A program made the translations under genes and the position numbers. A stretch of 20,065 nt of DNA from a virus, in the IMG/VR virus record IMGVR_UViG_3300045922_000246, positions 1 through 20,065 of that record, one strand, 5' to 3'. A model generated the notes under the pieces. That model was given only the letters and a program-made list of their open reading frames with translations, was not told the origin of the DNA and ran no database searches. This document shows positions 1-14,094 of this stretch, one piece after another. Positions within the stretch are counted from its first letter, which is position 1; each line of letters starts with the position of its first letter.

Positions 1-725
1 GTCGGGCCGAACAGCGCGATCACCGGCACGCCGCACGCCGCCGCCAGATGGCTGATGCCCGAGTCGTTCCCGATGTACACGCTCGCCGCCGCCAGCCACC
101 GCGCCAGTCCGCGCAGATCGGCGAACCGCACGGCGCCGTCGAGCTCCTCCTCCGGCCCCGCGCACCAGAACACGGGCATCCGCCGTTCCAGAATCGAAGC
201 CGCCTGACGGAACCGTTCGAGCGGCCAGTTCTTCCGCGGGCTGCCCGAGAAGGGATGAATCACCGCGTACCCGGCCGGTGCGGCGCGGAAGGGCAGCGTG
301 GGCGCTGCGCCCGGCGGCGCCCCAACCTGCCCGAGATAGAAATCCACGGCATGGACGGGACAACCATCGGGCGGCACCGCCCGGTGAAACTCGAACGGCA
401 GCCCCTCCACCTGCCGCCGGAACTCCTCCCGCGCCGCGCCATACCACGAAATGATCCGGCCGAAACGCCGCAGTCTCCCCAGCGTCCCCGCGGGCAGCTC
501 CAGATGGTCCAGCCCCTCGGCGTACAGCGAGCGCGCAGGAGCGATGTGCTCGAACAGCGGGATGTTCTGCTCCGGACACCAGATCTCTGCGGGCCGGAGA
601 TGCCCGACCGCCGGCAGAGAGACGATGGCGTCGCCGATGGCGCCCGGACGGATCACGAGAACCCGCCCTCCGGCGGGCGGAGATTCCTCCCGTGCGTTGC
701 CCGGCGCAGTGAAAGTGTCGCTCAT
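1..725 (-). CDS. Glycosyltransferase family 9 (heptosyltransferase-like), partial
   Basis: This host-side gene runs off the left edge, so only the first 241 residues are visible. Residues 21-37 read RVLVIRPGAIGDAIVSL, the N-terminal nucleotide-fold signature of family 9 (heptosyltransferase) enzymes. A later HPFSGSPRKNWPLERF block and YIGNDSGISHLAAACGVPVI match the donor-binding C-terminal domain. Known family members transfer heptose or related sugars from a nucleotide donor onto lipopolysaccharide core or other glycans at the inner face of the cytoplasmic membrane. Which sugar is used here cannot be told. The ATG at 723-725 is chosen because it is the only in-frame start before the RVLVIRPG motif and no start lies just upstream. 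No good Shine-Dalgarno site precedes it. It lies outside the prophage, beyond the tRNA remnant. Confidence 0.85.
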   Translation of the reverse strand, partial: MSDTFTAPGNAREESPPAGGRVLVIRPGAIGDAIVSLPAVGHLRPAEIWCPEQNIPLFEHIAPARSLYAEGLDHLELPAGTLGRLRRFGRIISWYGAAREEFRRQVEGLPFEFHRAVPPDGCPVHAVDFYLGQVGAPPGAAPTLPFRAAPAGYAVIHPFSGSPRKNWPLERFRQAASILERRMPVFWCAGPEEELDGAVRFADLRGLARWLAAASVYIGNDSGISHLAAACGVPVIALFGP

Positions 726-797
726 GCCCAGCGCTGATTCTCTGGCGTCAGACCGGCAAGCCCGCCGCCCCCGCCCGGATCCCTCCGCATTGCGTCT

Positions 798-831
798 CAG
801 CCTGCAGCCTTCTGCACCCGGTGCAGGCTGC
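798..831. repeat. Inverted repeat between host gene and attachment site
   Basis: CAGCCTGCA (798-806) is perfectly complementary to TGCAGGCTG (822-830). A nested alternative hairpin pairs CTGCAC (812-817) with GTGCAG (821-826). There is no T tract on either side, so this is not a typical intrinsic terminator. It lies in the 726-909 gap between the tRNA fragment and the glycosyltransferase start, which otherwise holds nothing recognisable. It could affect readthrough from the tRNA locus into the glycosyltransferase, but this is a guess. Confidence 0.4.
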
Positions 832-909
832 GTCAGCCGCGGCGCATCTGAGGCCCCCTGGACAGAGAAAGCCCGTCCTCAATCCATCTCTCGGGGGAAT
901 CGGAGGCGC

Positions 910-954
910 TGGAGCGGGAGACGGGACTCGAACCCGCGACGTTCAGCTTGGGAA
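910..954 (-). tRNA. tRNA-Gly(CCC) 3' fragment, attachment core
   Basis: Read on the minus strand this is the 3' part of a tRNA. It holds anticodon loop TTCCCAA (948-954, anticodon CCC), the 3' anticodon strand GCTGA, a 5-base variable loop, T arm GCGGG-TTCGAGT-CCCGT (one G-T pair), acceptor strand CTCCCGC, discriminator T and CCA at 910-912. The 5' anticodon strand is absent: the next bases (ACGCA on the minus strand, 955-959) do not pair with GCTGA, and no D arm or 5' acceptor strand follows. This is what integration into a tRNA gene leaves at one end. The phage copy of the 3' half restores a whole tRNA at the other end. The fragment is thus the attachment core and should not give a functional tRNA. 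Confidence 0.85.
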
Positions 955-971
955 TGCGTTAACGTTTTTTC

Positions 972-984
972 TATCAATGCTTTA
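972..984 (+). promoter_or_regulatory. IHF-like site in attachment arm
   Basis: TATCAATGCTTTA fits the integration host factor consensus WATCAANNNNTTR at every fixed position. It is preceded by a T6 tract (965-970), as IHF favours an A/T tract on that side. It lies about 18 bp from the attachment core and between the core and the integrase gene, comparable with the H' site beside the lambda core. The match is seen directly. Its use for bending DNA in an integrase complex is inferred, and the preferred sequence of this host's IHF is unknown. Confidence 0.5.
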
Positions 985-1007
985 CGGTTCATCAGAATCG
1001 TCGTAAG

Positions 1008-1607
1008 TCACCAGTCGCGCAGTCGGCGGTCACGCTCGATGCGCCTCTTGTTCGTGATCCGCGCGTAAATCATCGTGTTCTGAATGTTGACATGCCCGAG
1101 GTGATCTTGCACATCCTCGATCGGCTCTCCGCGGTTCAGCAGATGGGTCGCGGCCGAGTGTTTCAGAACGTGGACGTGCCTCTTCTCGGGCGGGATTCCG
1201 GCCGCCTCACCGTAACGTTTCATCAGCACATCCAGCATCTGCTGTGAGATCGGCTTCCCGACGCGGGAGGGGAATAGCGGTCCCGGGGCGCTTCCCCTGA
1301 CCCGGAGCCAGGAGCGAATCGCTTTGACTTCGTTCTTGGTGAGATGGTACTGCCCGCCGCGGCTGCCCTTCAAGCGCCGCACGGTGAGCCGATCAGACCG
1401 CGGATCGAAATCGGCCACCTGGAGCAGCCCGATTTCCCGCGCACGGAGACCACGGTGATACGCCACGCGGAAAATGGCAAGATCACGCGGATCGCGGATC
1501 ACTGAGAAGAACCGCTCGATTTCCTGTTCCGTGAGGTATTGGATTTCAGGACGCGCTCGCCTGGTCATCGGAGGGCACGAATTGGTGAGAATAGGCATTC
1601 TCACCAA
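1008..1607 (-). CDS. int: Tyrosine recombinase/integrase, catalytic domain only
   Basis: This is the probable enzyme for integration and excision at the adjacent tRNA-Gly site. The 199-residue frame holds a tyrosine recombinase catalytic domain: first arginine in GLRAREIGLL, lysine in RRLKGSRGG, the histidine motif HVHVLKHSAATHLL, DHLGH, and the tyrosine nucleophile in NTMIYARI. The usual second arginine of HxxR is lysine here (HVLK). The N-terminal SAM-like core-binding domain and any arm-binding domain are missing; phage integrases are usually 300-400 residues. The longest frame begins at TTG (1605-1607), but the hairpin at 1579-1610 covers that start. ATG at 1566-1568 (186 residues) is more plausible and keeps the whole domain. 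Neither start has a clear Shine-Dalgarno site. The stop lies about 50 bp from the attachment core, as expected for an int gene at a prophage end. Confidence 0.88.
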   Translation of the reverse strand: MVRMPILTNSCPPMTRRARPEIQYLTEQEIERFFSVIRDPRDLAIFRVAYHRGLRAREIGLLQVADFDPRSDRLTVRRLKGSRGGQYHLTKNEVKAIRSWLRVRGSAPGPLFPSRVGKPISQQMLDVLMKRYGEAAGIPPEKRHVHVLKHSAATHLLNRGEPIEDVQDHLGHVNIQNTMIYARITNKRRIERDRRLRDW

Positions 1608-1689
1608 TTCATCGGCTTGGCCGGACGAAAACTCAACAGGTTACTGGCGATTTCTGACGTTGGAAACTCGCTGTAGTCACCAATTCGTG
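1576..1689. repeat. TCACCAATTCGTG inverted repeat pair around integrase 5' region
   Basis: CACGAATTGGTGA (1576-1588) is perfectly inverted at TCACCAATTCGTG (1677-1689), with the right arm of the 1579-1610 hairpin (1601-1610) as a third TCACCAATTC copy. A related GTAAGTCACCAGTCG sits at 1003-1017 over the integrase stop codon. The non-coding gap 1611-1697 otherwise shows nothing recognisable. Repeated short motifs on both sides of int and near the core are typical of recombinase arm sites or repressor operators. The sequence alone does not tell which. Confidence 0.6.
1579..1610. repeat. Perfect 14-bp hairpin at integrase 5' end
   Basis: GAATTGGTGAGAAT (1579-1592) and ATTCTCACCAATTC (1597-1610) are perfect inverted copies separated by AGGC. 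On the integrase transcript this hairpin would end about 10 bases before the ATG at 1566-1568 and would bury the upstream TTG and ATG starts. No T run follows, so it is not a standard terminator. It could be an operator, a recombinase binding site or an RNA structure that controls int translation. Confidence 0.7.
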
Positions 1690-1697
1690 TGTCAGGC

Positions 1698-2783
1698 CTA
1701 TTGGAGCACACACCGGCCGGTGAATGAGACCAGAAACTGGATCTGGACGTCGCCGGACGCGCTCACCACGACCTGGTCCGGGATCACCCATTCCCAGTTA
1801 CCTCCGCTTTGCATGAAGCACGTAACCTGAATTGGACCGACCCCAAGCTGGTGGGTCGCAGCGGTCACGCTGACGGAGGTCTGACTCGTCACATCCTCGA
1901 CGTGTTTCAGCCTCGGGAGGCGCTGAGGATCGAGTGTGCCGCTCGTGATGTCGGCGGCGCTGTGGGTATGGGCCGCCGACGGAAAGGATGTAGGTTTGCT
2001 TGTCACGTCTGCCCAATCCACAGCAGCCCACTGCTGATCGCCACGCAGGAACGTACCAGAGGTGGCCGTTCCAGATCCGAGACGGGCAGAAGCGATCGTC
2101 CCGCTGGCGATTTGTGAGGCGTCATGGGTGTGAGACAGCGATGCTTTCCCGTCGAGAGCAGTTTGAAGATCCGTCTGATTGCTGAGCGTCCCGGTGATGG
2201 TTCCCCATGTCGGCGTACCGCCAGTCTCATCCGGCGCCGCGATCCATGCGGATCCGTTCCACTTGATGACCTGGCCTGCGATGGCCCCGGACTGGCTCAG
2301 ATCGGAGAGCGGATGATTGTGCGAGACCGCCGCCTTCCCATTGAGAGACGCCTGTAGGTCCGTCTGATTGCTCAGTGTGCCAGTGATCGCGCCCCAAGTC
2401 GCGGTGGCGCTGATGGTCTGCCAGCTTCCGTCATCCCGCAGGAATTTCGTGCCGTCCGGGGCTCCTGAAAGCCCTGTGATCTTGGACCAGGCGAGGGACG
2501 AAATCCAAGATGGGTTGACGTAGGCGCTGTCGAGGCGGGGATAGCGGCTGTCATGGTCGTGAACCAGCGGCGCCTTCCCGTCGAGGGCGGCTTCCAGATT
2601 GGCGATGTCTCCCACGTCCAGCGTCACATCCTGTGCACGCGTGGGAGAAACGTGCCCAATAGGAAGCGCTGCTCGATTTTTACAGTCACATCCTGTGCAC
2701 GCGTGGGAGAAACTCTGTGGATATTGGTAAAAACGCGCGAAAAACTGTCGGTTCACCTGGTGCAACAAACGGGCATTCCACAC
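1698..2783 (-). CDS. Tail fibre protein with repeated collar modules; 5' end doubtful
   Basis: The frame has 361 residues, of which about 52-361 look like a phage tail fibre. Two copies of TWG(A/T)ITGTLSNQTDLQ are followed by LDGKA or LNGKA and SHNH or SHTH motifs, then LGSGTATSGTFLRGD, a HTHSAADITSGTL repeat and a beta-rich C-terminus. Such repeats form the shaft of receptor-binding fibres. Residues 1-51 are unlike a fibre and are read through the 29-base repeat pair and its spacer, with cysteine-rich low-quality sequence. The longest frame starts at GTG 2781-2783 with no ribosome site. GTG 2625-2627 is an alternative, also without good spacing. The usual N-terminal tail-attachment domain is missing. 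The gene may therefore be a 5'-truncated fibre or a fibre cassette without its base. Confidence 0.7.
   Translation of the reverse strand: MWNARLLHQVNRQFFARFYQYPQSFSHACTGCDCKNRAALPIGHVSPTRAQDVTLDVGDIANLEAALDGKAPLVHDHDSRYPRLDSAYVNPSWISSLAWSKITGLSGAPDGTKFLRDDGSWQTISATATWGAITGTLSNQTDLQASLNGKAAVSHNHPLSDLSQSGAIAGQVIKWNGSAWIAAPDETGGTPTWGTITGTLSNQTDLQTALDGKASLSHTHDASQIASGTIASARLGSGTATSGTFLRGDQQWAAVDWADVTSKPTSFPSAAHTHSAADITSGTLDPQRLPRLKHVEDVTSQTSVSVTAATHQLGVGPIQVTCFMQSGGNWEWVIPDQVVVSASGDVQIQFLVSFTGRCVLQ
2623..2713 (-). CRISPR. CRISPR-like mini-array: two 29-base repeats, one 33-base spacer
   Basis: Two identical 29-base copies lie at 2623-2651 and 2685-2713, separated by a unique 33-base segment (2652-2684), so the period is 62. 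Read on the minus strand, each starts GTTTCTCCCACGCG and ends CACAGGATGTGAC. The GT start, CCCACGCG middle and GGATG near the 3' end recall type I-E repeats of 28-29 bases, whose period is about 61. Against this, the internal stem is weak, there are only two copies, no cas gene is present, and copy one runs directly into fibre coding sequence. The bases on the 5' side (2714-2750) contain A/T tracts, as a leader might. A chance duplication of phage DNA gives the same picture. Confidence 0.35.
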
Positions 2784-6698: not shown

Positions 6699-9600
6699 CT
6701 AAATGAGCGGGATCTTCCCGATGAAGTTGCCATTGGCGTCGTGCGCCGGAATCCAGCGGTTGCTCGTGACCCCTCCGAGCGGAATGGACTCCCAGACCGT
6801 GTTCGCGAACCGCATGTGATCCAGAACGACGACCTTTTCGATGTAGGCGTCCACGACATCCAGAAGCGAGTTCGGGCCCAGATCGACGGTCGTATGCGGC
6901 GAACTGCACTGAAATTCGCAGCCGTATGCCGTCGCTTCGATCTTTATGGTCTTGTTCGTGTCGGCTTTCAGGATCAGCCGTGCGCCATGCGGATCGCCGA
7001 GCGGCTCGGTGACCGTCAGCTCCGCCCGGGCGTTAGACTGGATCCTGTTCAGTATGAGCTTCTGCCACCCAAGGCTTCCAAACCCGCCAGATATTCCGGA
7101 AACCGCGACCTCGTAAGAACTCACCTGAGTTGCGAAATTGCCCTGGATGGCTCCTACGTACAGGCCTTCCGTCGGATTAATCTTGATCCGGCTGTTATAC
7201 GGCACCGAGTCCACCTGGATGGACGCGTTGTTGATCTGCGCCCCTGCGCTGGTCAAGGAAATAATGGGGCTCGTGAACGTCCCGCCAAAACGGCCGTTTA
7301 CGGCCCACAATCCGGTGAACGATTGGCTTCCCTGCGTGAACTCCCCGATCGCTCCGATGATCCCCCCGAAGCTGTCTGTGATGATCAAGCGCGGGGGCTG
7401 CCCAGCGTATGGGCCGATGCTGATCTGATTCCCCGCCAAGTGGGACGTGTTGATCGCGCCGGCGGCGATCAGACCGGCTACGATCGTGCCGGCCGCGATT
7501 TCGTTTGCCGTGAGCTTGTCCACGGCCAGCTCTGCCTTGATGTCGGAGCTAGGCATCGGACGGACGTAGGCCGACCCGTTCCAGCGATACAGCCTGCGGT
7601 CGCTCGTATTGACAATGAAATCGCCCTGGTAATTGGACGGCACGTAATTGAGGACGCGCACTGGCGCGAAACTCGTGGCAAACTCCGCCGCCGTCAGGCC
7701 GTTCTGCTGAAGCTGGCTCTTGATTTGAGCCGCATTCGCATCCGGCTGGTAGGCTGAGCCGTTCCATGTCCAGAGCTGGCCGGACCAATACACGACTCTC
7801 GATCCGAGCCACGAGGCTCCCGGTTGTGTGGCGGCAATCACTGGCACATCGCGGTCCGGAGCTGTGGTGATCCGGCCTTGACCGTCTACAGCCATCGGTC
7901 CAGTGACGGAGCCGGGTTTGGCGCGCGTCATTGTCACACCGCCGGAGACAGGCACAGATACGAAGACCGTCGGCGGGTTGACCGGATTCTCCTGCCCGAG
8001 TGAATTGCAGGCGACTGCTTTGAACAACCAGTATTCGGGCTGGCTTGGCAGCGGCCACCAGCCGCCCGGCCCGCCGGTCATGATCGCCGCGACCCTGTCA
8101 GGCAGCCAGTCAGCAATCGGCTGACCGGCCGAGTTGGCGGGCCGCCGGTAAACGTGGATGTGGTGGAAGTCCGGGTCAGACGGCGGCGAGAACGAGAACA
8201 CAAAGCGGGCGCGCGGCACCTCCTGCGACTGGTCTGTTTCTACGGTGACCTGCCAGTTGTAAACCTGGTCGCTCAAACCAGCCCGCGGAAGCCAGACGCT
8301 CGCCACCGGCAGTTGTCCGGTGTTGTAATCCGACGGCTTGAGCCAGACGCCATCCGCTGGTAGCTGAGCCACGAGCGCAAGGTGAATGTACTCCCCCTCG
8401 CCTGTCGGAGGCGGCACCCAGAGCGTCACCGAGCCCTCGGTCGTGTTCGCCTCAGTCGGCTTGTAAAGCGAGTACGGTGGCGGCTCAGACTCCGGCGAGC
8501 GATACTCGTAGATGCCGTACACCACGCCCGGAATCGTCAGCGGCGTCCAACTCAGATCCAGTTTGCCGTAGCGGATACCGTTTCCGTCATCCCAGTAGCC
8601 GCTGAGTTGCGCCGTGAAGTTCCAGTTGTGCCCGACGCCGGGCACGGCATCTCCCAAAGGCAGATGCAATGCGTAGGGCCCGGCGATCGTGCCCCAGGCG
8701 CGGTTTCCGCCGGCTCGGTCGCGCACCGCTGCCCGAAGCCAGAATTGCGTCGATGAGCCTGGCGTTATAGGCCACCATGGACTGTGAATCGTGGTTGGAT
8801 CGCCAGGGCGATGCTCTCCGATCCTGCGCAGCGTGGCCCAATCGCTCGGTACGGTTTCTGACGCAAAACGCACATGCACGTCAGCCCCGCCGTAGTGCTC
8901 CTGACCCAACGCCGAGCCTGAGAGATTCACAGCCAGCCGATAGCTCCAGCCGCCTTCGTTCTGCCGATACTCGACAGCGGCAGACGTGATGGAAAGCGGG
9001 TCCAAGGGGCCTGTTGGGACGCCGCCGGATCCGCCTTCCGATGGCCTCGGCGACGATGGCGGGATGCCTTGCGCAGCTGCGAGGTCACGGAAGAAGCTGG
9101 CCGCGTCATCAGTGGCCGGCCCCGTCACGCATTCCAACTGGACAGATAGCTGACCGGCCACGTCAGCAGTGCGAATCTGACGGATCAGATACGTCAGCGG
9201 GTACGCATATCCGCCGCCATTGTATGAGCCGGAGGCATTCGATCCGACAAGGCGAACCTTGTCCGAATCGACCACCTGCACGCTCCAGGATCCATTCAGG
9301 CCAGGTACCTGGTGGAGCCGGATGCGCGCGCCGTCCATGAGGCCGTGGCCAGGAATGGTGATGACCGACGGCGCTCCATATTCGACCGCGGCGACCTGCT
9401 TCCACTCAAGACGGTAGCCATCGACGTCGACGTGAATGAACTGCCCCACCCGGGCTGTCGAGGCGAGCGGCTCGATGACAGTATTGGTGTCGATCACAGC
9501 CACCGCGCTGAGGCTGTCAAGCTTGTCAAGCGCCGCCTGTGCATACTGCCTGGCGTCCGCACGGGTCATCTCCTGGGATGTGTCGATCAGCTTTTCGTAG

Positions 9601-10598
9601 ATGCCAGTATGTTGTTCGATCGAGGCGCGGCGGCTGATTTCGCCCGTGTTTTCCACAGTGAGCACTTCGGACGACAAGCCGATGTATGTGATCTCCAGCA
9701 CGTCTCCGGGGGCGAGAGCTGCAGAGTTGTCTGATTGGCCGATTTCTCTGCTCCCGGTCTGCCAGTAGAACTCCGCGGCATCGTCGCCGTATGGTCCCAC
9801 TGTGCGCGACACTCCGTTCACGCGGACCGTGGGCGAGGCATGTACTGGGAAAGTCACTGCCCAGCGCTTCCTCGTTCCGTCCGGCTTCATCCAGTCGAGC
9901 GGGTCTTCTCCTTCGCCAGTTCGGCCTTGCGCATCGAATCGAGCCATCTGCGGATCGCGGACGAACTGGCCGATCTTGGCGATGATCCTGTTGGCGTACT
10001 GCTCGCGTGTCGAGCGCAGCACGAGATCTTCAAAGTTGGTGCTGTCTGGATCCAGTTCGAACGGGCATGCATAGGAATTGGGCGCGAAGAAGCGTAACTG
10101 GCGTCCGTAGTCGATGTACCAGACCATGCCTGCAACTTCGGCGAGTTGCTGGAGGGCCTCGGCGATAGTGGCATGGTCGATCTCGAAGCGCTCGACGACC
10201 GGGCCCTGCTGGATGAAGTCAATCCCGACAGCCTCTCCGCCCAGGTAGGTCGTGCAGATCTCGATGACGATCGCGCCTGCCCGTGTCGCCTGCCAGCTTT
10301 TCTGCCCGGTGATCCTCCGGTCCAGGATGCGATGGTGGTCGACGCAGGACACCCTCCACAGGCCGGCGAAAGTCCCCGGATATCGCACGGCTTCCACCGT
10401 CTCGATGCTGCCGGCGAAAATCGTGTAGGCGCCATCCTTCACGAGCACGCTCTGCCCAACCTGCGGCGCCGTGATTGAGCCGTCCGGGTTGTCGATCGAG
10501 AACTCGCACGTCGACCGGCCTCCGAGGGTTTCGACGATGTTCAAGGTGCCCTGCTTCCAGTTGTAGGGTCCGCCGCCGATCAGAAGTGAGAACGCCAT
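6699..10598 (-). CDS. Tail hub / central fibre protein, J-like multidomain
   Basis: The 1299-residue protein is the largest in the window and lies after the tape measure, where tail tip or host specificity proteins sit. Residues 1-400 look like a tail hub domain (LLIGGGPYNWKQGTLNIVET; later hub-like GDVLEITYIGLSSEVLTVEN). Residues about 530-890 hold several beta-sandwich, fibronectin III-like stretches. Residues about 890-1060 carry WNGSAYQPDA and RRLYRWNGSAYV repeats and the EIAAGTIVAGLIAAGAI motif common in J-type central fibres. The C-terminus is beta-rich. ATG 10596-10598 has no Shine-Dalgarno sequence: the terminator hairpin ends just upstream. The fusion of hub and central fibre in one chain is inferred. 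Confidence 0.8.
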   Translation of the reverse strand: MAFSLLIGGGPYNWKQGTLNIVETLGGRSTCEFSIDNPDGSITAPQVGQSVLVKDGAYTIFAGSIETVEAVRYPGTFAGLWRVSCVDHHRILDRRITGQKSWQATRAGAIVIEICTTYLGGEAVGIDFIQQGPVVERFEIDHATIAEALQQLAEVAGMVWYIDYGRQLRFFAPNSYACPFELDPDSTNFEDLVLRSTREQYANRIIAKIGQFVRDPQMARFDAQGRTGEGEDPLDWMKPDGTRKRWAVTFPVHASPTVRVNGVSRTVGPYGDDAAEFYWQTGSREIGQSDNSAALAPGDVLEITYIGLSSEVLTVENTGEISRRASIEQHTGIYEKLIDTSQEMTRADARQYAQAALDKLDSLSAVAVIDTNTVIEPLASTARVGQFIHVDVDGYRLEWKQVAAVEYGAPSVITIPGHGLMDGARIRLHQVPGLNGSWSVQVVDSDKVRLVGSNASGSYNGGGYAYPLTYLIRQIRTADVAGQLSVQLECVTGPATDDAASFFRDLAAAQGIPPSSPRPSEGGSGGVPTGPLDPLSITSAAVEYRQNEGGWSYRLAVNLSGSALGQEHYGGADVHVRFASETVPSDWATLRRIGEHRPGDPTTIHSPWWPITPGSSTQFWLRAAVRDRAGGNRAWGTIAGPYALHLPLGDAVPGVGHNWNFTAQLSGYWDDGNGIRYGKLDLSWTPLTIPGVVYGIYEYRSPESEPPPYSLYKPTEANTTEGSVTLWVPPPTGEGEYIHLALVAQLPADGVWLKPSDYNTGQLPVASVWLPRAGLSDQVYNWQVTVETDQSQEVPRARFVFSFSPPSDPDFHHIHVYRRPANSAGQPIADWLPDRVAAIMTGGPGGWWPLPSQPEYWLFKAVACNSLGQENPVNPPTVFVSVPVSGGVTMTRAKPGSVTGPMAVDGQGRITTAPDRDVPVIAATQPGASWLGSRVVYWSGQLWTWNGSAYQPDANAAQIKSQLQQNGLTAAEFATSFAPVRVLNYVPSNYQGDFIVNTSDRRLYRWNGSAYVRPMPSSDIKAELAVDKLTANEIAAGTIVAGLIAAGAINTSHLAGNQISIGPYAGQPPRLIITDSFGGIIGAIGEFTQGSQSFTGLWAVNGRFGGTFTSPIISLTSAGAQINNASIQVDSVPYNSRIKINPTEGLYVGAIQGNFATQVSSYEVAVSGISGGFGSLGWQKLILNRIQSNARAELTVTEPLGDPHGARLILKADTNKTIKIEATAYGCEFQCSSPHTTVDLGPNSLLDVVDAYIEKVVVLDHMRFANTVWESIPLGGVTSNRWIPAHDANGNFIGKIPLI

Positions 10599-10602
10599 AA
10601 CG

Positions 10603-10636
10603 AAAAAGCCCGCTGCGGGCCGAAGCCCGGCGGGCT
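10603..10636 (-). terminator. Intrinsic terminator with UUCG loop
   Basis: On the minus strand AGCCCGC-CGGGC-TTCG-GCCCG-CA-GCGGGCT is followed by TTTTT (10603-10607). This gives a 12-bp GC stem with a 2-base bulge, a UUCG tetraloop and a U tract. It lies between the secreted protein gene (stop at 10661) and the hub gene, whose ATG is only four bases past the T tract. It would end transcripts before the hub unless an antiterminator acts. Confidence 0.85.
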
Positions 10637-10660
10637 GAACAATGTCGAGTGTCTCCGGAG

Positions 10661-11143
10661 CTATTTCTCCGCCAGAAGTCCTTTCGCCCAGACCTGCAGC
10701 CGGATCAGTTCCAGGATCTTCCGCTCCAGCTCTCCCGTGCTGCGGAACCGCTCCGGCCCTTCTGTGAAGAGCCCGCGCCGGTATCCGTTGTAGTCGACTG
10801 CCAACCGCACCTCGCAGTGCTGTTCTCCGGTGCGCCAGTTGACGTTGATGTCAGACAGAATCAGCTCGGCGAACCGCGGCCGCAGGCCTGCGACGTAGCC
10901 GAAAAGGCCGGAGTTGGTCTCGGCCGGCTTCTTCACCTGCCGCCAGACCTGGTTCCAGTCGCGCGTGCGGTAGGCGTGGGCGTACACCATGGTCGCACCG
11001 CCGCCGCTCGGCTGGACGTCGAAGCCCAGGGCGCTCATCGCTTCATGGGACGGCCAGTCGACTTGCCCGCAGGACAGCGGCAGGCGCATCGATTCCTCGG
11101 CCAGCAGCGTCATGCAGAATAGAGCCAGAGTGATCAGCTTCAT
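10661..11143 (-). CDS. Secreted protein of unknown function, possible moron
   Basis: ATG 11141-11143 is chosen because GGAGG lies six bases upstream and it starts a signal-peptide-like sequence: MKLITLALFCMTLLA, with a positive residue, hydrophobic core and small residue before EES. The 160-residue product has two cysteines after the signal (LSCGQ and EQHCEV) and is otherwise mixed alpha/beta. I recognise no family. It lies between tape measure and hub and is followed directly by an intrinsic terminator. Phage genes of this kind (morons) are often expressed from the prophage and alter the host envelope. That role is inferred from position and signal peptide only. A periplasmic assembly or tail-linked role is also possible. 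Confidence 0.65.
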   Translation of the reverse strand: MKLITLALFCMTLLAEESMRLPLSCGQVDWPSHEAMSALGFDVQPSGGGATMVYAHAYRTRDWNQVWRQVKKPAETNSGLFGYVAGLRPRFAELILSDINVNWRTGEQHCEVRLAVDYNGYRRGLFTEGPERFRSTGELERKILELIRLQVWAKGLLAEK

Positions 11144-11184
11144 GCCGGCCTCCGGCCTGATGGACGCGGCTGGGTGAATCACCG

Positions 11185-14094
11185 TTACAAGCCTCGCTGC
11201 TTGAGACGGCGCACCAGCTCGTCCAGGAACGCATCCAGATCCCGGAATCCGATGAAATTGGCGCCGTCCATGTTGATCGTGATGTTGCCCCCGCCGCCCG
11301 CCAGCTTCAGGCCTCCGGTGATGTACTCGTCCCACCCAATCAGAACGTCCCGCACCTCCACGATGCGGGCCTGAACGTCTCCGAATCCTGGCAGGCCCGC
11401 GTTGATGCGGTGAATGATGTGCTCCAGATGCAGCGAGCTCTTGCGCGTGTTCCATTCGATCGCGTTGAGCGAGCCCTCCTGCCTCGCATTCTGGAAGACC
11501 GAAATCACTCCAGTGACGGCGCTGATGGCCCCCGTGACCACGCCGGCCAGCGCGGTAAACGAGGAGCCGATCACTTTCCCGACTGTACCCGCGGTCTGAC
11601 TGGCCACCTGCCCGGCGGCTGCCGCCGTGGACGCTGCCGCGGACGCTGCCGTGCCCGCTGTGGCCGCGGCGCTGCCGCCCAGACCGAAAATCGATCCGAT
11701 CTTGGCGAGACCGGGAATCTTCGCTACGATACCCGCGATTTCGCGGCCCATCGCCGCAAAGGTCTTCTCGATGGCGAGCCGTGTCAAAGCTTTCCCGATC
11801 TGCTCCAGGCTGTCCACCATCACGTCCTTGAACTTCCCGCCTTTGAAGATCAAGTCCGTGATGTCCTTTGCCGTGTCCTGAAAGATCGCGCCAAGCCGCT
11901 GCTTGGCCTGCTCCCAAAAACTGACTTGCTCACGGCTGAGATCACGCTGCCACTTCTGGAGCCTTTGCAACTGCGCAGCCTCTTCTTGCGTGAGGGCAAT
12001 GTTCTGACGGCGCTTCTCGAGCAACAATTCCAGCTCGGCCTTTCGCTGCTGATAGACCGGCGCGTTGCTAGACTTCAGTGTGGCCACGTCGGCGGCCATC
12101 TGATGGATGTCCTTCTCGCCATCAAACCCGAGCCGCTTCTTCGCCTCCTGCAGCTTCTTGTACTGCTCGACGTTGATCCCCAGAGCCCAGGCCAACTGCT
12201 TGAGTTGCTGTTCAGCGCGCGCGGCAGCCTGCTGGTTGCCGATCTCCTCCCACATCCTCTGGTAGAACCGCCCGGCTATTTGCGCGGCGATGCCTGATTG
12301 CTCCGCAGCCTGTCCGGCTTTGGCCACGTACCAGGGGAACCTGTCCGGCTCGAACCCGCGCAGCGAGAGAATCTCGGCAATCGACCTGAGCCTCTGCTCG
12401 GCCTCCTTGGCTTGGGCGCCGCCGGCGATTTCGGAGACCATGTCGCGCAGCACTGTGCCCACATTTTCTGGCCCCTGGATTTTGCCAAGCTCCTCACGGA
12501 CCGCTTTGATTGGCTTGTGCACGGCTTCGAAGGCCTGCCGCACGGCCTCCTGCGCGCGGGCCAGATCCATGGCGGAGGCCTTGCCTTCGCGGTATGCCTG
12601 CTCAACCGCAGCCAGCGCCTCACGAGCCTGCTGGTAGCGCTTCGTGAGCGTCTCGGTGCTGTCGACTCCCAGCACGCGGAAGGCCTCGGCGAGGTCCATG
12701 GTCTGCCGCCTGGTCTCGTCTGCCGCCTGATGCGTCGCCTTGTGGGCCGTCGCCAGTTGTATCAGGCCGCGGGCGTACTGGGCGATCGAGATTTCAGCGC
12801 GTCGGTAAGCCTGGTCGAGTTCCGCTGTCGAGATGCCAGCCTGATGGAGTTTGATCCGGAGAATCTCAATGCTGTGGTTCTGCTGCTCGGTGGCCTCGCG
12901 CGCCTGTTGCTGCGCGTCGCGCAGTTGTCTGGATGCCGAGACCAACTGGACGACTCCGGCGGCCGCCTGCACAGCCGCGAGGGCCGTAGCTGTCAGAAGA
13001 GCCGCGCCTCCGAGTGCCTTCAGCGCCACGGTGGCCGATCCTGCCGCCGGAACGACCTGCGAAATCAGTGCTCCTGCAAACTGGCCAAGAGCCAAAGTGC
13101 CAGCGCCGACAGCCACGGTCATCGCTTTTATGACCGGAATTGCTGTGGCGATGCCCGTGATCCCCAGCCCGATCTGGCCAATCGCAGCCAGCGCCGGACC
13201 GGCGGCCACTGCGAGCCCCCCAAGAGCCACAGCCGTGGCCTGGATGGCCGGCGGCAGCTCGCGGAATCCCTTCGCCATGTCCGCCAGCTTGGAAACAGCG
13301 GCCTCAGCGAATTTCGTCACCAGTTCCGTGCCCGGCCGCAGCGCGGCGCCGAATTCCGCCATCGCGCGCTCGGCCGCGTCGCGGATGTTCTCGAACGCGT
13401 TCTTGACGCCGCCGGTCACCGGCGGCAGTTTCTCGAACTCCGCCACGATCCGCTCGATGAACTCCTGCGTCGAGATGCCCATCTTCTGGAGCGCTTCCGT
13501 ATCGGCCGTGCCGAACGCGGCCTTCATCGCAGCGCGGATCTGCGGCAGGCGTTCGCCGAGCTGGTTGATCTCCTGCGCGGAGATCTTCCCTTTGGACTGG
13601 ATCTGGGTGAGGGCGAGAATGACGCCGTCCAGATCGGCTTTGCCTCTGCCGACGGTGGCCAGAGCGTTGCCAAAAGCCTTCAGAGAACGCTCTGCCAATT
13701 GAGCCGAGAAACCGGCGGCCTGGAGATTCACCGAGCCCTGGATGGCCTCGCGGAAGCCGAGTCCCGGCAGCTTCGCCACCTCGGCCAGCCGCGCGAGCTG
13801 CTTGTCCGCCGCGGCGGCGCTGCCGCTGACGGCGATCAGTCCCATGCGCAGGGCTTCCAGATCGGCGTCGGCCTTCACCGCGGCCACGCCCAGCGCAGCC
13901 AGCGGCGCGCTGACTCCGATCGTCAGCCTGGTCCCGAGGGAGCCGATTCGCTCGAACGCCGTACGAATGCCGCGCACAGCATTGTCGCTTACCGAGCTGA
14001 GCCGCTGCATCTCGACCGACACTTCGCGCACGCCGCGCGAAAACTGCGCCGTGTCGGAGGTGATCTTGACGATCAGTTCACTGAGCCGTGCCAT
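11185..14094 (-). CDS. Tape measure protein
   Basis: The 969-residue protein sets tail length and fills the tube lumen in long-tailed phages. The N-terminus (SELIVKITSDTAQFSRGVREV) and the block at about residues 113-200 (LGFREAIQGSVNLQAAGFSA, QSKGKISAQEINQLGERLPQ) match the tape measure N-terminal domain family. A long hydrophobic alanine/glycine region at about 275-390 is typical of the membrane-inserting part. Coiled-coil, glutamine-rich segments follow at 390-730, and the end is GGGNITINMDGANFIGFRDL. Its ATG lies inside the 3' end of the chaperone frame. By the usual rule of about 0.15 nm per residue, the tail would be roughly 145 nm long. Confidence 0.92.
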   Translation of the reverse strand: MARLSELIVKITSDTAQFSRGVREVSVEMQRLSSVSDNAVRGIRTAFERIGSLGTRLTIGVSAPLAALGVAAVKADADLEALRMGLIAVSGSAAAADKQLARLAEVAKLPGLGFREAIQGSVNLQAAGFSAQLAERSLKAFGNALATVGRGKADLDGVILALTQIQSKGKISAQEINQLGERLPQIRAAMKAAFGTADTEALQKMGISTQEFIERIVAEFEKLPPVTGGVKNAFENIRDAAERAMAEFGAALRPGTELVTKFAEAAVSKLADMAKGFRELPPAIQATAVALGGLAVAAGPALAAIGQIGLGITGIATAIPVIKAMTVAVGAGTLALGQFAGALISQVVPAAGSATVALKALGGAALLTATALAAVQAAAGVVQLVSASRQLRDAQQQAREATEQQNHSIEILRIKLHQAGISTAELDQAYRRAEISIAQYARGLIQLATAHKATHQAADETRRQTMDLAEAFRVLGVDSTETLTKRYQQAREALAAVEQAYREGKASAMDLARAQEAVRQAFEAVHKPIKAVREELGKIQGPENVGTVLRDMVSEIAGGAQAKEAEQRLRSIAEILSLRGFEPDRFPWYVAKAGQAAEQSGIAAQIAGRFYQRMWEEIGNQQAAARAEQQLKQLAWALGINVEQYKKLQEAKKRLGFDGEKDIHQMAADVATLKSSNAPVYQQRKAELELLLEKRRQNIALTQEEAAQLQRLQKWQRDLSREQVSFWEQAKQRLGAIFQDTAKDITDLIFKGGKFKDVMVDSLEQIGKALTRLAIEKTFAAMGREIAGIVAKIPGLAKIGSIFGLGGSAAATAGTAASAAASTAAAAGQVASQTAGTVGKVIGSSFTALAGVVTGAISAVTGVISVFQNARQEGSLNAIEWNTRKSSLHLEHIIHRINAGLPGFGDVQARIVEVRDVLIGWDEYITGGLKLAGGGGNITINMDGANFIGFRDLDAFLDELVRRLKQRGL

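Follow-up and report, generated by a model that had tools for sequence, protein, structure and literature searches.

The gene orf160 is likely a moron for a secreted envelope protein that, as far as sequence can tell, would be transcribed independently of the late operon and has been swapped between phages and host chromosomes. Since the gene also occurs alone in bacterial chromosomes, its product is probably of use to the host cell rather than a component of the virion. The gene lies in a window of 20,065 bases, an entire IMG/VR record, on the same strand as the tail genes and between the tape measure gene and a hub-like gene. The features that bear on this reading are as follows.

909–954, minus strand: attachment core, whose 46 bp match the 3′ part of a tRNA-Gly(CCC) in locus L019, and also locus L028, without a difference.
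1008–1607, minus strand: tyrosine recombinase (integrase, lysogeny), 199 aa, Phage_integrase E = 4.7e-32.
6699–10598, minus strand: hub-like tail protein of 1299 aa, 3′ neighbour of orf160, whose matches to PHROG tail/baseplate-hub entries are weak (E = 6e-4 and 5e-3).
10607–10636, minus strand: terminator-like hairpin with a UUCG loop, followed by a T-run (10607–10603); called on energy and conservation and found in 4 of 4 phage copies.
10661–11143, minus strand: orf160, predicted exported protein of 160 aa with a hydrophobic N-terminal signal sequence and invariant C25 and C110.
11149–11153, minus strand: Shine-Dalgarno-like GGAGG, 5 bases 5′ of the orf160 ATG, identified by eye.
11163–11166, minus strand: −10-like box CGTC, 17 bases past TGTAAC; GCGTCC is invariant in 7 of 7 copies.
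11184–11189, minus strand: −35-like box TGTAAC, which includes the tape measure stop TAA (11187–11185); AAC is invariant in 7 of 7 copies.
11185–14094, minus strand: tape measure gene, 5′ neighbour of orf160, Pfam TMP_3 E = 3e-14.

The window is most likely a provirus within, or near to, the Bryobacteraceae, with its tail genes on the minus strand, because it carries the attachment core together with a flank that aligns to the flank of a prophage in genome G150. The tRNA-Gly(CCC) that matches positions 909–954 comes from L019, a host genome locus of Bryobacteraceae, and window positions 422–2631 form an 86% alignment, in opposite orientation, with the G150 prophage flank (L028 11794–14000). 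Positions 1–954 are a host-chromosome-like left end that runs up to the attachment core, its flank common to prophage-bearing G150 (86%). The prophage belongs to soil and hot-spring Acidobacteria. The G150 prophage itself is seemingly divided by contig ends, its capsid and terminase genes missing; on the opposite G150 contig end (L030 14049–18737), an identical attachment core adjoins a second integrase of 372 aa and a large replication-like gene.

A preliminary description, made from the sequence of the window, had noted a secreted protein of no recognisable family between tape measure and hub, and its placement, signal segment and lack of relatives were all borne out. The frame (11143–10661) opens with an ATG and encodes a protein with the N-terminus MKLITLALFCMTLLAEE, whose signal peptide was called by eye from the sequence. 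C25 and C110 are invariant in every copy that covers those positions, and a lipobox-like cysteine occurs in the family only in the G150 prophage copy (L026) and in L019. That the frame is truly coding and under purifying selection is shown by dN/dS ratios of 0.066–0.184 in 21 of 21 pairs among four phage copies (window, L002, L003, L026) and three chromosomal ones (L025, L017 and a partial L018), with values of 0.075–0.153 among the chromosomal copies. The protein matched nothing significantly in Pfam, PHROGs, NCBIfam, PADLOC, PDB sequences, INPHARED phages or PLSDB plasmids, and the PADLOC search, run with four family members, likewise gave no match; Pfam hits at E = 0.099 and above were set aside as chance-level. 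Two AlphaFold2 models, of the full length and of the mature part, reached a mean pLDDT of only 37.7 and 36.4; at this low confidence, both show three long strands and a C-terminal helix. Function could be read neither from the sequence nor from these models. Base composition does not deviate (GC 0.644, vs 0.646 in the tape measure and 0.620 in the hub gene); such a deviation is common in morons and is not required of them. As a side observation, the N-terminal quarter of the hub protein shows 30% identity, over 27% of the protein, to the Methanosarcinales virus record BK063672.

The family is tiny, with four phage copies, of which those of the window and L002 are near-copies, and three genomes. 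The latter are 3 of 237 Bryobacteraceae genomes, where orf160 stands outside tail operons as single copies with intact frames and the same upstream block. Samples of the order and the phylum (257 and 396 genomes) yielded no clear further member; the weak profile hits seen in other Acidobacteriota genomes (per-genome E between 4e-4 and 0.05) were attributed to chance, since they were short and many were interrupted by stop codons. G150 holds a copy in its prophage and a second at 2,465,613, which is surrounded by host genes, with a tRNA-Lys at 0.51 kb and the last phage-like genes some 27 kb off. In G001 (SKYG119), the copy lies 0.37 kb from a tRNA-Arg of low Rfam score (30.8 bits), with an integrase gene on its other side. 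The G002 copy, 1.47 kb from a tRNA-Gly, spans two contigs, the MAG assembly being broken inside orf160, and the contigs overlap by 95 identical bases (L018 1–95 and L019 8114–8208). The sample may have contained orf160 in more than one setting, and the true neighbourhood of L019/L018 is less sure owing to this break.

All three chromosomal copies thus sit on the 3′ side of a tRNA, in genomes of 4.1–4.9 Mb with 46, 45 and 40 tRNAs; a rough post hoc estimate puts the chance of this, at the distances given, at about one in a million. So improbable an arrangement suggests that the copies entered by way of integrative elements. No convincing att-like repeats were found around the L027 and L017 chromosomal copies. 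We considered a second, distant tailed prophage in G150, at 2418–2438 kb beside a tRNA-Arg(tct) (L116/L117), as the source of that genome's chromosomal copy and rejected it, as it ends about 27 kb away and runs directly from tape measure to hub.

In the gene tree, L025 pairs with the window and L002, L017 with L003, and L018 with L026, two of the three pairings having only moderate support. A single split between phage and chromosomal copies was rejected (AU p = 3.6e-10). Because the two kinds of copy interleave, orf160 must have crossed between phages and chromosomes more than once. This pattern, together with three genomes that each hold a copy outside tail operons on the 3′ side of a tRNA (0.37, 0.51 and 1.47 kb), leaves room for a possible though doubtful alternative, that orf160 is a host chromosomal gene picked up several times, with the phage a mere carrier and the upstream block its native promoter. 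Presence in 3 of 237 family genomes, however, means that orf160 is no core host gene, and left-overs of integrative elements, which land at tRNA 3′ sides, would fit the locations equally well; the direction of transfer is not readable from seven sequences. This alternative differs from the moron reading in the origin of the gene rather than in the autonomy of the unit, and both may be true.

The tape measure–hub junction of relatives also bears on the moron reading. The preliminary description had proposed to look for relatives that lack the gene and keep both neighbours, and L004 is such a relative. Its tape measure is 96.8% identical to that of the window and its hub is 98.2% identical, over 228 aa, to that of L002, which carries orf160; its junction holds neither orf160 nor the hairpin, the tape measure TAA being followed by the hub ATG 5 bases on. 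Among five close records that contain the junction, orf160 is present in four (window, L002, L003 and L028) and absent from L004. In ten more distant tape measure relatives (L008–L014 and L110–L112), no more than about 10 bases separate the end of the tape measure gene from the next gene; for L110, the start given for that next frame is an early one, which makes it overlap the tape measure gene. Records without a junction were excluded from these presence and absence counts: L007 is cut within the tape measure gene, L006 and L015 also stop there, and L016 is a second stretch of the L015 contig. The orf160 of the window has its closest match in L002 (94%, vs 81% in L026 of the G150 prophage); for the tape measure of the window, identity is 89% with the G150 prophage (L028) and 80% with L002. 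Since orf160 and the tape measure have different nearest relatives, the history of the gene differs from that of the genes around it.

On these grounds, we regard it as improbable that orf160 encodes a tail assembly or virion protein of the phage clade that is expressed only late, with the hairpin merely tuning the downstream hub and fibres. Its position on the tail-gene strand, its tight fit between tape measure and hub and its presence in four of the five close junction records would agree with such a role. Yet L004 keeps near-identical neighbours without the gene, and the constrained, stand-alone chromosomal copies, with the same upstream block, and the interleaved gene tree make a role in the virion unlikely. 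Signal peptides are unusual in virion proteins, and the one predicted for orf160 also speaks against this explanation.

Directly behind orf160 lies the UUCG-loop hairpin, which had been described as a strong terminator and withstood closer analysis as a terminator-like element. Its stem (10636–10607) closes on a C(UUCG)G loop, and the T-run ends a few bases 5′ of the hub ATG. The fold has an energy of −23.9 kcal/mol (z = −3.5; none of 200 shuffles was equally good), an excess that is smaller when longer flanks are included (z = −1.3; 24 of 200 shuffles), and a plain terminator scan of the whole window found no excess of sites (13, vs 11.5 in shuffles). Conservation is the stronger evidence for the hairpin: across the four phage copies, 33 of the 34 columns of hairpin and T-run (10637 to 10604) are invariant, as against 3 of 23 positions, in window numbering, in the gap between stop codon and hairpin. 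No covariation was seen in the hairpin among these four copies, and the pairing rests on sequence and energy. The hairpin is absent 3′ of all three chromosomal copies whose 3′ side is visible, and a search of the 237 family genomes for its motif, allowing one mismatch, found it in G150 only, in the prophage copy. Confinement to phage copies is expected if its role is to keep the orf160 transcript out of the tail genes. Hairpin and T-run together form a predicted terminator and would give orf160 the terminator of its own that marks a moron. With orf160 present, the hub ATG (10598) lies directly behind the hairpin and lacks a Shine-Dalgarno sequence; at the empty site (L004 4828), it lies 5 bases past the tape measure stop. 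The sequences suggest that insertion of orf160 broke a translational coupling between tape measure and hub.

Upstream of orf160, a promoter-like block is shared by phage and chromosomal copies. We compared seven 5′ ends (window, L002, L003, L026, L025, L017 and L019), and TGYAAC-N17-CGTC stands at one distance from the start codon in all of them, L019 being one base off: its block begins CG, with C as the first base, and is otherwise as in the six others. Anchored on the start codon and aligned without gaps, the seven share G-N-AACG, 15 bases, and GCGTCC. The tape measure stop codon falls within the −35 box (TG-TAA-C) of the phage copies. The two-box score, computed from L026 and the three chromosomal copies, comes to 11 matched positions; the best of 5000 shuffles gave 6. 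Local alignment of the last 60 upstream bases from chromosome to chromosome was no better than the best shuffles, so that the boxes are conserved within otherwise diverged sequence. The window contains a single exact match to the motif, and a scan of the window for sigma-70 promoter-like sites found none.

The form of the block resembles promoters of ECF sigma factors, which in the available text of PMC4153023 generally carry AAC at −35 and CGT at −10. Mapped promoters of RpoE7 from S. meliloti read TGTAAC-N16/17-CGAA, the spacing being our own count from those promoters (PMC6180224). The orf160 block fits with AAC at −35, CGT at −10 and a spacing of about 16–17 bases, and from this form we infer that it is a putative ECF-sigma promoter. 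The three host genomes are rich in candidate sigma factors, with 32, 33 and 29 matches to Sigma70_r4_2 (sigma-70 region 4). In these genomes, the motif was in no excess over a reversed control, either exactly (14 vs 21, 10 vs 16 and 13 vs 16) or with one mismatch (17 vs 21, 9 vs 23 and 12 vs 19), and therefore no regulon is shown. The related sequence TGCAACG-N15-GCGTCC occurs at position 1501 of L052, L053 and L057, from three genomes, immediately 5′ of the gene for a secreted protein (about 336 aa), with an isoleucyl-tRNA synthetase-like gene pointing the other way. As support for a regulon this site was dropped, since a sigma-70-like TACAAT adjoins it.

We consider it improbable that the block is no promoter and instead marks one end of a mobile cassette (a recombination or insertion site) with the hairpin at the other. 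The similarity between the window and the L027 chromosomal copy does start near the block (from 11189), and the unit moves in one piece. The chromosomal copies, however, have no common element on their 3′ side, and the block has the layout of a promoter, its two boxes standing 17 bases apart around a diverged spacer, with a Shine-Dalgarno-like sequence after them.

We return to the moron reading, which the preliminary description had offered and which holds in part: the empty site in L004, the promoter-like block and the stand-alone chromosomal copies favour it, and the data do not choose among the benefits that the protein may bring. A self-contained, accessory orf160 transcription unit would have entered a Bryobacteraceae prophage at the junction of its tape measure and hub genes. 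The unit looks autonomous because of the promoter-like block upstream, and the conserved sequence argues for both its own transcription and its own termination. The block would serve a host ECF sigma factor as promoter and allow transcription of orf160 while the prophage is silent, perhaps in response to envelope stress; translation would start from GGAGG-N5-ATG. The hairpin would end this transcript before the tail genes, and late transcription after induction would run through it. The protein would be exported by a type I signal peptide, with one possible disulfide, and would work in the cell envelope of the lysogen, to its benefit; an envelope role is suggested by the signal segment and by the stand-alone, constrained chromosomal copies. 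The likeliest benefits are the exclusion of other phages, superinfection exclusion being possible, and aid under envelope stress. Only tentatively do we propose that the prophage wires an exported protein to the host's ECF envelope-stress network, using the tape measure stop as its −35 box, that production of the protein in the lysogen is confined to times of envelope attack, and that hosts have repeatedly kept the promoter–gene unit after losing the phage, or without having had it.

Morons of lambdoid and other temperate phages are described, in the available portions of two accounts, as accessory loci independently transcribed in lysogens (PMC7067206, PMC6469090). Like them, orf160 is a single gene between two late genes, missing in a relative and flanked by promoter-like and terminator-like sequences; unlike them, it has a promoter-like block of ECF-sigma rather than sigma-70 type, its protein falls into no known family, and its chromosomal copies stand alone without the hairpin. 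With the superinfection exclusion lipoproteins of the Ltp type, as the available text presents them, it shares being a small exported prophage protein (PMC3952083). In contrast to these, its family has no conserved lipobox cysteine and matches no known family. SieA of P22 is an integral inner-membrane protein, unlike the orf160 product, which has an N-terminal signal segment only. Both would be prophage-expressed and envelope-acting, judging from the available text on SieA, and the likeness is by analogy only (PMC10883804). A study of Acidobacteriota viruses reports Bryobacterales proviruses and predicted morons, and its available text does not mention orf160 (PMC11924767). No link between a prophage, an ECF sigma factor and a moron was found in the titles and opening abstracts of the open-licence papers searched. 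The predicted architecture of orf160 is thus that of a moron, and what appears new is the unusual form of its putative promoter and a protein without known relatives in the libraries searched.

Accessory genes of prophages are hard to recognise from sequence. orf160 bears most of the marks by which this can be done, namely an empty site, a promoter-like block, a terminator-like hairpin and constrained stand-alone homologues, and it comes from a phylum whose phages have been little studied. If its promoter answers to an ECF sigma factor, the phage would tie the protection of its host to the host's own sensing of envelope stress.
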